DNA of 37,990 nucleotides from Candidatus Tiamatella sp. Its GTDB lineage: Archaea; Thermoproteota; Thermoprotei_A; Sulfolobales; Acidilobaceae. Positions within the stretch are counted from its first letter, which is position 1. Every line of letters starts with the position of its first letter. The stretch lies in the NCBI GenBank assembly GCA_015522645.1, contig WALV01000021.1, forward strand, positions 1 through 37,990, in the 5' to 3' direction. Positions 21,938 to 25,314 of the stretch are shown here, piece by piece. The notes below the pieces were generated by a model. The model ran no database searches. It saw nothing but the letters and a program-made list of their open reading frames with translations, and was not told the DNA's origin. A program made the translations under genes and the position numbers.

Positions 21938-24130
21938 ATGGCTCAAAACAGCAAAGAAGTAAGATTGAGGGTAAGAGAAGCCGACCAGAGGGATGTGGGT
22001 AGGAAAATAGCTAGAATAGGTAGAAATGTAATGAAGCTCCTCGGACTAGAAACTGGTGACTTCCTAGAAATAGAGGGGCCAAAGTCAATAGCGGTAGCAA
22101 CAGTATGGCCCCTACACGGGGGGGAAGCCCAGAGAGACATAATCAGGATAGACGGGTACATTAGAAGCGCGATAGGTGCAAGCATAGGGGACTATGTAAC
22201 TGTCAGGAAAGCCGAAAACGTAGAGCCGGCGAAGAAAATAGTGCTGGCCCCATTGGAACCTATTAGATTCGGAAAAGACTTCGTTGACTACGTTAAGAAC
22301 ATACTTAAAATGAAGCCAGTTGGGCGTGGAGAGACTATTGTTATTCCAGTATTCGAAGGATTACCCTTGATGGTTGTCTCAACACAGCCAAGCCACTACG
22401 TCTACGTCACAGACGATAGTGAAGTGTCTATAAGAGAGAAACCCTTGAAGGAAGCAGAACTAGAGAAGGCGCGGGGGTTCCCTAAAGTCACATGGGAGGA
22501 CATAGGTGATCTTGAAGAGGCTAAAGAGAAGATAAGGGAAATAGTAGAGTTACCCATGAAGCACCCGGAGCTATTCAAGCACCTCGGTATAGAGCCGCCG
22601 AAGGGGGTGCTGCTATATGGGCCTCCGGGCACGGGTAAAACACTGTTAGCTAAGGCTCTCGCAAACGAGATAGGAGCCTATTTTGTAATGATAAATGGAC
22701 CCGAGATCATGAGCAAGTTCTACGGGGAAAGCGAGCAGAGGCTGAGGGAGATATTTAGAGAGGCAGAGGAAAACGCGCCCAGCATTATTTTCATCGACGA
22801 GATAGACGCTATAGCACCAAAGAGGGAGGAAGTAACGGGTGAAGTCGAAAAAAGGGTAGTGTCCCAGCTTCTCACATTGATGGATGGTATGAAGGAGAGA
22901 GGGAAAGTAATAGTTATAGGCGCGACCAATAGACCGGATGCTCTCGACCCAGCACTTAGAAGGCCAGGTAGGTTTGACAGGGAAATAGAGATAAGGCCTC
23001 CGGATAAGAGGGCTAGGAAGCTCATACTACAGGTACATACGAGGAACATGCCTCTGGACGAGGATGTTGATTTAGATAAACTGGCGGAGCTAACACACGG
23101 CTATACAGGAGCCGATTTAGCAGCCCTAGCTAAGGAAGCAGCGATGAGTGCTCTAAGGAGATTCATTAGAGATGGCAAAGTAGATCTATACCAGGCAAAG
23201 GAGCTTCCAGCAGGCATGCTGAAGAACATTAAGGTAACAATGAATGATTTCCTCGAGGCAATGAAGCTGATAAGGCCTACTCTAATCAGGGAGATATATG
23301 TAGAGGTCCCCCAAGTGAAATGGGATGACATAGGAGGACTAGATGAGGTGAAACAAGAAGTCAGGGAAGCCGTGGAATGGCCAATTAAATACGGGAAAAT
23401 AATCGAGAAAATGGGGATACACCCTCCGAAAGGCGTACTCCTCTTCGGTCCCCCAGGCACGGGTAAAACTTTACTGGCTAAAGCAGCTGCAACGGAGAGC
23501 GGGGCGAATTTCATAGCAGTGCGTGGGCCGGAAATACTGAGCAAGTGGGTTGGTGAAAGCGAGAAAGCGATAAGGAAAATATTCGAGAGAGCGAGGCAGG
23601 CGGCACCTACAATAGTATTCTTCGACGAAATAGACTCCATAGCGCCAGCTAGAGGGCTAAGGCATGACAGCGGAGTAACTGATAGAATAGTGAACCAGAT
23701 ACTGACAGAGATGGATGGGATCGTCCCCCTGAACAAGGTTGTAGTTATGGGAGCCACAAACAGGCCTGACATCATTGATCCCGCACTACTGAGGCCCGGT
23801 AGATTCGATAGGGTAATCTATGTACCACCTCCAGATAAGGAGGCCAGGAAAGAGATATTCAGAATACATACGAGGAACATGCCTCTAGGAAAAGACGTTG
23901 ACTTTGACAAGCTAGCGGAGCTAACCGAGGGTTATACGGGCGCGGATATTGAGGCGGTTTGCCGTGAGGCGGCAATGATAAAGTTAAGGGAAAAACTGGA
24001 GATAGGTCCCGTTGAAATGAAGCATTTCGAGACTGCTCTCAAGAAGGTTCCTCCAAGCATAACTAAAGAAGACTTGGAGAGATATGAGAAGCTCGTAAAG
24101 GAATACAAGAGAATGACTCTGGGAGGCTAA
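21938..24130 (+). CDS. Cdc48/VAT-type double AAA+ ATPase
   Basis: The 730-residue product is a p97/VAT unfoldase. The N-terminal substrate domain (1 to about 180) is a double-psi barrel plus a second subdomain. Two AAA modules follow. The first has Walker A GPPGTGKT near 228 and Walker B IIFIDEID near 281; the second has Walker A GPPGTGKT near 502 and Walker B IVFFDEID near 560. Sensor and arginine-finger motifs ([20 protein letters not shown] and the second-copy equivalent) are complete. It unfolds proteins for the proteasome and remodels complexes. Codon use favours A-ending codons (ata, aga, gga), unlike most neighbours, perhaps a high-expression style. The stop codon lies in the loop of a hairpin at 24121-24139. 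Confidence 0.97.
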
Positions 24131-24139
24131 TCTCCTCCC
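24121..24139. terminator. Hairpin with the Cdc48 stop codon in its loop
   Basis: GGGAGG (24121-24126) and CCTCCC (24134-24139) form a perfect 6-base-pair stem. The 7-base loop CTAATCT contains the TAA stop (24128-24130), and TCATCTTTT follows. It lies exactly at a convergent gene junction, so it could end transcription both ways. Confidence 0.45.
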
Positions 24140-24406
24140 TCATCTTTTCCCATACATAATCCTACCCTCACTATCCTTAATGTAAACTATCCGGTGTAAC
24201 GGTATGACCGTCCACTCATCATCCAGTGTCAAAGCCCACTTGTCTGCCGAGACCACTCGATCCAAAGGTATTTCCCTTATCATCGAACCCGAGATATCCT
24301 TCTCTCTATGAATATAGCCTATGACCACTCCTTTAGGCCGCTCATGTAGAAGCCACCGCAACTTATCATACAGAACGCTCCTCCCCAAACATAACACCAT
24401 TATCAA
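24140..24406 (-). CDS. DUF504/MJ1316-type RNA-end-binding domain protein
   Basis: This is a single-domain product of up to 88 residues. The pattern LYDKLRWLLHERPKGVVIGY, then IREIPLDRVV and a C-terminal TVIPLHRIVYI, matches the DUF504 (UPF0248) family. That family has been described as the MJ1316 domain, linked to recognition of RNA cyclic ends. TTG 24406, ATG 24400, GTG 24397 or a later TTG are all possible starts, and none has a convincing ribosome site. The gene is the last of a minus-strand group of tRNA-Gln, the H/ACA RNA candidate, and this ORF. Its 3' end meets Cdc48 with only 9 bases between. Confidence 0.75.
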   Translation of the reverse strand: MIMVLCLGRSVLYDKLRWLLHERPKGVVIGYIHREKDISGSMIREIPLDRVVSADKWALTLDDEWTVIPLHRIVYIKDSEGRIMYGKR

Positions 24407-24415
24407 CGCTCTGAA

Positions 24416-24490
24416 TGTGGGGAGGGGTAGAGTCCCCCGGTCATTACCCGTGAACCACGGTTAATCCCGGGATTGTCGCCTCCCTCCCCC
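24416..24490 (-). ncRNA. Candidate H/ACA box guide sRNA
   Basis: On the minus strand a 75-base element has all parts of a single-hairpin archaeal H/ACA RNA. There is a lower stem GGGGAGGG/CCCTCCCC (8 pairs), and a two-sided pocket follows (left AGGCGACAA, right GACTCTAC). The upper stem is TCCCGG/CCGGGG. Above it, tandem GA residues on both sides (GGGA and TGACC) fit a K-turn for L7Ae, capped by ACCGTG-GTT-CACGGGT. ACA (24416-24418) directly follows the lower stem. From the top of the pocket to ACA is 14-16 bases, as the family rule requires. A TATA-like CTATAC at about 24518 lies near 27 bases upstream. Predicted target form: (G)UAGAGUC-Psi-N-UUGUCGCC; not matched to any rRNA here. Confidence 0.65.
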
Positions 24491-24536
24491 AACCGTATAA
24501 TATGACAAAATAGAAGTATAGATTTTTCCCATGGGA

Positions 24537-24644
24537 TGGTAGCCGGGCGGGGATTCGAACCCCGGTCACGGGGGATCTCCCAGCAGAGCCCGTTACGGAC
24601 CGCTGTCCAAAGCCCCGCATCCTTGGCCGCTAGACGACCCGGCT
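24537..24644 (-). tRNA. tRNA-Gln (TTG) with a 32-base intron, CCA encoded
   Basis: The acceptor stem is AGCCGGG/CCCGGCT, then A73 and CCA (24537-24539). The T arm is CGGGG-TTCGAAT-CCCCG, and the anticodon stem is CGGGG/CCCCG. The loop reads CTTTGG up to the intron, giving anticodon TTG. The intron (24575-24606) sits at the standard 37/38 position and forms a bulge-helix-bulge. Exon CTTT pairs with intron GGAG, intron CAGC pairs with GCTG, and 3-base bulges lie at both splice sites. The AGCC 5' end suits an archaeal tRNA-Gln. A TATA-like AATAAAATAT (24666-24675) is correctly spaced upstream. Confidence 0.93.
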
Positions 24645-24735
24645 CTCCACCGACTGGTGGTTCCCATATTTTATTAGTATTCATATTAACCTATAAAGGA
24701 TATATTTATTCTTCGGGTTCAGATGGAGGTGTAAC

Positions 24736-25314
24736 TTGGGTTTGAATTCGAAGACGAGCCTCATAACTATCACTGTTCTCCTCTTAGCCGTTCTCGGAGT
24801 TGTAGCCTATTATCTCCAATTCAACAGTGGAACGAGTGGAGGAATGACTACTACGCAAGTAACTCAAAAACAAGAAAACCTTTCATGTAAAGGTGATCAA
24901 ATCATGCTTGATGACGGCGTATACCTCTATACTACTAACGGCATAGTGAAAACGAGTTTGAGTAAGGTAGCAGAGTTAAAGGATAAGCCTATAGTTATGT
25001 TGTTCTATAATAACCAATGCCCCCATTGCAGGGATTTTGACCCTACTTGGTGCCAGCTTGTTGAGAATCCCAACGTTTCATCTAAATATTATATGGTTAA
25101 AGTAGTGTGCGACTGGTTTACTGCAGCTTGTACGAGCGAAGATGCACGGTTGCTTTTTAGTAACATGGATGTAAGGGCTTCCCCCACTATAATTATAGCG
25201 AAGGCTAGTGGAAACAGTATTACTGGCGTTCAGATGCTTGTTCCCGGTGAGCCTGTATCCTTTGCGTACGGGGACCTGTTGAATTATCTGTTGACTTATA
25301 CTCCAAGCAAGTAA
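24736..25314 (+). CDS. Membrane-anchored thioredoxin-fold protein (CPHC)
   Basis: The 192-residue product has one N-terminal membrane anchor (about residues 8-28, LITITVLLLAVLGVVAYYL). A linker and a thioredoxin-like domain carry the redox pair Cys95-Pro-His-Cys98 (YNNQCPHCRDFDP) and a cis-proline segment ASPTIII. Extra cysteines (Cys51 and three between the active site and the cis-Pro) are unusual and could form structural disulfides. The domain should face outside the cell. The TTG start follows GGAGGTG by 5 bases. Likely role: disulfide exchange in secreted proteins; the partner is unknown. Confidence 0.8.
   Translation: MGLNSKTSLITITVLLLAVLGVVAYYLQFNSGTSGGMTTTQVTQKQENLSCKGDQIMLDDGVYLYTTNGIVKTSLSKVAELKDKPIVMLFYNNQCPHCRDFDPTWCQLVENPNVSSKYYMVKVVCDWFTAACTSEDARLLFSNMDVRASPTIIIAKASGNSITGVQMLVPGEPVSFAYGDLLNYLLTYTPSK

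Follow-up and report, generated by a model that had tools for sequence, protein, structure and literature searches.

The minus strand of the window (the whole stretch of DNA analysed, 37,990 nucleotides of Candidatus Tiamatella sp., contig WALV01000021.1) encodes from position 24489 to 24416 a 74-nt RNA with all parts of an archaeal box H/ACA guide. With high confidence this RNA is regarded as a single-hairpin archaeal box H/ACA sRNA, which guides pseudouridylation of 23S rRNA at the equivalent of Escherichia coli U2457 and is probably transcribed from its own promoter. Judged from the sequence data it is a real H/ACA guide RNA gene that had not been listed before, and its predicted target is well supported. 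The evidence comprises the structure of the RNA, its conservation and covariation, the target match, and the Cbf5 and L7Ae genes of the host genome. Archaea are already known to use RNA-guided pseudouridylation, which keeps the novelty modest.

Structure of the RNA

The lower stem is followed by the pocket, the GA stem, the GA/UGA kink element and the apical hairpin, and ACA stands immediately 3' of the lower stem; all of these parts were found on the minus strand at the place (24416–24490) where a sequence-only reading had proposed an unannotated H/ACA guide candidate. The segment layout on this strand is GGGGAGGGA-GGCGAC-AAUCCCGG-GA-UUAACCGUGGUUCACGGGUAAU-GA-CCGGGGGA-CUCUA-CCCCUCCCC-ACA, with G1 of the lower stem at 24489 and the final A of ACA at 24416. 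The features are the following:

24416–24489, minus strand: H/ACA guide RNA, 74-nt core (covariance-model match and covariation across genera)
24481–24489, minus strand: lower stem, 5' strand GGGGAGGGA (eight Watson-Crick pairs and one A.C with 24419–24427; compensatory changes in other genera)
24475–24480, minus strand: 5' guide arm GGCGAC (its GCGAC is complementary to GUCGC of 23S rRNA, which follows the target UN; GCGAC invariant in nine confident homologues)
24467–24474, minus strand: GA stem, 5' strand, AA purine mismatches followed by UCCCGG (six pairs with 24435–24440, covarying in other genera)
24465–24466, minus strand: kink-turn/kink-loop GA, 5' side (invariant in aligned homologues; faces GA at 24441–24442)
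24443–24464, minus strand: apical hairpin (variable in sequence and length)
24441–24442, minus strand: kink-turn/kink-loop 3' side, GA of UGA (U at 24443)
24433–24440, minus strand: GA stem, 3' strand, CCGGGG followed by GA purine mismatches
24428–24432, minus strand: 3' guide arm CUCUA (its CUCU is complementary to AGAG of 23S rRNA, immediately before the target U; CUCU invariant in nine confident homologues)
24419–24427, minus strand: lower stem, 3' strand CCCCUCCCC
24416–24418, minus strand: ACA box (14 nt counted from where the 3' guide begins; ACA in eight of nine confident homologues, ACU in one, G009)

The RNA was assigned to the minus strand because ACA comes right after the hairpin there and the tRNA is upstream of it, while CAACC comes after the plus-strand hairpin. 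A plus-strand reading also folds into a hairpin, but it has no ACA after the stem and was rejected, since ACA, K-turn and target fit the minus strand only.

In the productive archaeal H/ACA fold (Toffano-Nioche et al. 2015, PMC4652768) the GA stem contains 10 stacked layers, the 3' guide has 5 or 6 nt, the lower stem has about 9 bp, and the distance from the GA stem to the ANA box is 14-15 nt. The 10 layers in the GA stem of the window RNA are two purine mismatches, six pairs of the Watson-Crick or wobble type and two GA pairs, and together with the five nucleotides of CUCUA, nine lower-stem positions (eight pairs and one A.C) and 14 nt to ACA this gives a 10/5/9 RNA. The pocket-to-ACA distance had been put at 14-16 bases, and the value of 14 nt holds when counting starts at the 3' guide's first base. 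The pocket itself had been drawn two bases too long on each side, because the innermost two bases of each side stack in the GA stem; the arms GACUCUAC and GGCGACAA proposed on that basis are too long, and the usable ones are CUCU and GCGAC.

The one-hairpin layout, the 10-layer GA stem, the kink, the ACA at 14 nt and the guide pairing on either side of UN are shared with the 10/5/9 class known from Pyrococcus abyssi, Haloferax volcanii (Hvo1) and Sulfolobus (Sso1) (PMC4652768), whereas the sequence and locus of this RNA are different, and in the genus of the window two of the 10 layers are purine-purine mismatches. A crenarchaeal group of pseudouridine guides, the Pyrobaculum H/ACA-like sR203-sR210 (PMC4652768), also possesses a GA stem and a kink but has a truncated or lost lower stem, unlike the full covarying lower stem present here.

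Conservation and covariation within the family

A DNA search of 98 relatives revealed the RNA in both congeners (G001 and G002) with 81-83% identity, in each case beside the same intron-containing tRNA-Gln; matches of 17-22 bp in G023, G034, G061 and G072 were short and were taken as chance. A first covariance model, built from the three congeneric sequences, yielded strong hits in other genera of the family (g7, g8 and g14), and a second one, built from nine sequences, added further matches within the family. Distant matches of the model in families f6 and f11 carry other arms and were left out.

In these other genera both lower- and upper-stem sequences are different while pairing is retained, and the guide arms GCGAC and CUCU remain constant among the nine confident homologues. 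Since the alignments were fitted to the structure of the model, pairing is somewhat inflated in the values of 99.2% of cells paired for nine sequences and 95.8% for 14 sequences; the segments were in addition arranged manually and compared with the DNA. Changes on both sides of a pair were observed in 10 of 14 pairs in the smaller alignment and in 11 of 14 in the larger one, where none of 500 shuffles was equal by any measure. The covariation score of the nine sequences was 0.669, compared with 0.199 for shuffles and at most 0.145 with slid partners. Covariation in related genomes, named beforehand as a check on the candidate, is thus present in both alignments.

The geometry is also retained with some variation. 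The lower stem of the homologues has 8-9 covarying base pairs, and ACA is found at 14 nt in seven sequences and at 15 nt in G027, with ACU at 15 nt in G009. In the kink region eight layers followed by GA/GA are present in g1 and g8, while g14 is one layer short on the 5' side, and in g7 there is an extra base beside GA and the tandem GA pairs are imperfect. At the 3' side of the kink AUGA is invariant within the genus and UGA is retained in other genera, with one extra base in g7.

These data bear on the reading of the element as a chance GC-rich palindrome or a tRNA terminator with no guide function. The fold energy of -41.0 kcal/mol, compared with -30.8 for the mean of the shuffled sequences (z -2.8; two of 200 shuffles equally good), is modest by itself and not decisive, which leaves some room for such a reading; it is the conservation and covariation across genera that raise the structure above chance. 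With covariation extending over several genera while the loops stay constant, with ACA and kink elements retained, and with no T-run terminator found, a palindrome or terminator is hardly credible. The guide RNA has no counterpart in Rfam: no H/ACA family matched region 24100–24760 at E values up to 5, and no match for the RNA was obtained at gathering scores.

Neighbourhood and transcription

The guide RNA is placed between a tRNA gene and an open reading frame of the same strand:

24537–24644, minus strand: tRNA-Gln(TTG), upstream neighbour (ARAGORN with introns; Rfam tRNA, 46.5 bits)
24516–24527, minus strand: AAAAATCTATAC, putative BRE/TATA element (-38 to -27 relative to the first RNA base)
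24140–24406, minus strand: ORF with MJ1316 domain (PF04457), downstream neighbour (the true start codon may be nearer 24388)

The tRNA-Gln(TTG), which was missed by Rfam at gathering scores and by ARAGORN in default mode, has an encoded CCA and a 32-nt intron in the anticodon loop, the length and sequence of which vary in the two congeners. The counterpart of the MJ1316-domain ORF in G001 is shorter. The guide had been described as starting 46 bases past the tRNA 3' end; the shared strand stands, and the gap is corrected to 47 nt (24490–24536), as the tRNA ends at 24537. A TATA-like element, which the same reading had assigned to the RNA, lies about 30 nt upstream; the AAAAATCTATAC block recurs at a nearly equal distance in congener G001, as an archaeal BRE/TATA would, and in G002 no clear equivalent was seen.

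The tRNA-Gln is located upstream on the same strand in all three congeners, with gaps of 45-76 nt (76 nt in G002), and in Nanoarchaeum equitans dicistronic precursors of tRNA and C/D box sRNA exist (PMC3491384), where a modification guide likewise lies downstream of a tRNA on the same strand. From this it could be proposed that tRNA-Gln and the guide share a dicistronic transcript, from which tRNA 3' processing frees the guide. Differently from the N. equitans dicistrons (PMC3491384), the RNA here belongs to the H/ACA type, is 47 nt away from the tRNA with a TATA-like element between them, and loses this neighbourhood outside the genus. No tRNA was found near the RNA in the examined loci of g7, g8 and g14, so that, within the loci examined, a single genus has the tRNA neighbour, and the guide is considered independent of it. 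In three genomes of these genera (G039, G009 and G034) the RNA lies between two ORFs, upstream of a glutamate dehydrogenase-like one; from reading their sequences we take the flanking ORFs to be SAM hydrolase/adenosyltransferase-like and glutamate dehydrogenase-like. The tRNA-RNA gap is moreover long and poorly conserved, and the TATA-like block is present about 30 nt upstream in both the window's own genome (G000) and G001. Release from a shared precursor is therefore an unlikely origin of the RNA. A tRNA-H/ACA dicistron of this one genus, in which the conserved guide has taken a place behind tRNA-Gln and comes from the tRNA transcript, is similarly doubtful; tRNA maturation would then also supply a guide that modifies the peptidyl-transferase centre. 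Transcription from its own promoter is the simpler reading and is regarded as probable.

The predicted ribosomal target and the proposed mode of action

Since 16S and 23S rRNA are absent from the window's own assembly, the target was read in a congener, using rRNA sequences of G002 and other relatives with guide arms fixed by the 10/5/9 rule. A first scan, in which the pocket had to begin near the upper stem's six Watson-Crick pairs, yielded weak and inconsistent sites and was discarded; when the pocket was shifted by the two purine mismatches a single consistent site appeared. All six sets of guide arms tested have one common qualifying site in 16S and 23S rRNA of G002, at 23S position 2616, with the sequence CAGAG-UC-GUCGC and 9 to 11 pairs across the guides. 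Comparison of G002 23S rRNA with E. coli rrlH identified the target U as E. coli U2457, and the site AACAGAGUCGUC is present in the guide-bearing genomes G002, G008, G009 and G015. The rRNA search advised by the sequence-only reading was thus fruitful in that one site fits the pocket, while the predicted pattern GUAGAGUC-UN-UUGUCGCC was not found and the actual one is (C)AGAG-UC-GUCGC. An equally good site was obtained in 98 of 2000 shuffled rRNA sets (about 5%; criterion of 4+5 bp), and for this reason the target case also rests on which site it is and on the arms being constant.

In E. coli pseudouridine 2457 is made by RluE, a protein-only enzyme, and snR34 is a eukaryotic snoRNA which guides more than one site. 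Yeast 25S U2826, the equivalent of E. coli 2457, is the position of snR34, so that the same rRNA position is predicted here as for snR34 and RluE, with the RNA-guided chemistry shared with snR34. The role of this yeast H/ACA RNA at the U2457-equivalent pseudouridine is documented (PMC11121408), and pseudouridine 2457 is nearly universally conserved (PMC11221467).

An H/ACA guide whose main target is another RNA (tRNA, mRNA or other rRNA site) would be in line with the extra-ribosomal and tRNA targets that are proposed or known for archaeal H/ACA RNAs (PMC4652768). In its favour, the 5' duplex is short in G000 and G001: provided that their 23S rRNA is that of G002, it spans no more than 4 bp, with A facing C at the fifth position, and has an energy of -6.1 without initiation, which is at the edge of the published cut-off of -6 kcal/mol and was calculated by a program different from that of the paper. 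Also, the distant matches of family f11 carry CUCCA arms, which do not fit the AACAGGGUC site of G188. Against this, every guide tested fits one common rRNA site at the published spacing in the scan of 16S and 23S rRNA, and the fitted site is pseudouridylated in bacteria and yeast; another main target is accordingly improbable, and the U2457 equivalent is retained as the predicted one.

The site is different in some relatives, being AACAGCGUC in G006 (g5) and AACAGGGUC in G011 (g10) and G188. In G006 and G011 no covariance-model match was obtained, as would be expected if the guides changed too. Several H/ACA-like RNAs were noted besides. Those of family f11 (L063, L075 and L078; each at 1501–1573) have the arms GGCGAC and CUCCA together with ACA. 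The hairpins of family f6 (L067 and L069; each at 1501–1571) have a UGA kink, ACA and other pocket arms and are candidate guides for another target. Two H/ACA-like hairpins occur in G030 (L065, 1501–1571, and L086, 1501–1577), and the first of them, with the differing arms GCGCC and CUUAG, is probably another guide.

The window's own genome encodes both Cbf5 (384.7 bits) and L7Ae (180.2 bits), above curated cut-offs. In the cbf5 gene (contig C11, L058 1477–2652) a short insert at the catalytic motif splits the reading frame between GHGGTL and PKVTGVLPVAL. The insert contains an in-frame TGA, forms a bulged hairpin when folded and presumably is the cbf5 intron known from Crenarchaeota.

Expression of the guide, RNP assembly and catalysis are proposed to proceed as follows. 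The RNA would be transcribed, probably from its own promoter, L7Ae would bind the GA/UGA kink, and the stems and the ACA box would be held by Cbf5 with Nop10 and Gar1. The pocket would then pair with the predicted 23S substrate CAGAGUCGUCGC, CUCU with AGAG and GCGAC with GUCGC; with UC left unpaired in the pocket, Cbf5 would isomerise the U at the E. coli U2457 position, beside the peptidyl-transferase centre.

In summary, for a family of archaea related to the Desulfurococcales this is the likely guide of a ribosomal pseudouridine that is nearly universal; no Rfam family covers the RNA, and the covariance model built here recovers it in several genera of the family. Bacteria modify this uridine with a protein enzyme and yeast with an H/ACA snoRNA; if the assignment is true, these archaea would do so with an H/ACA sRNA, and the uridine would be a clean case for comparing protein and RNA-guided solutions.
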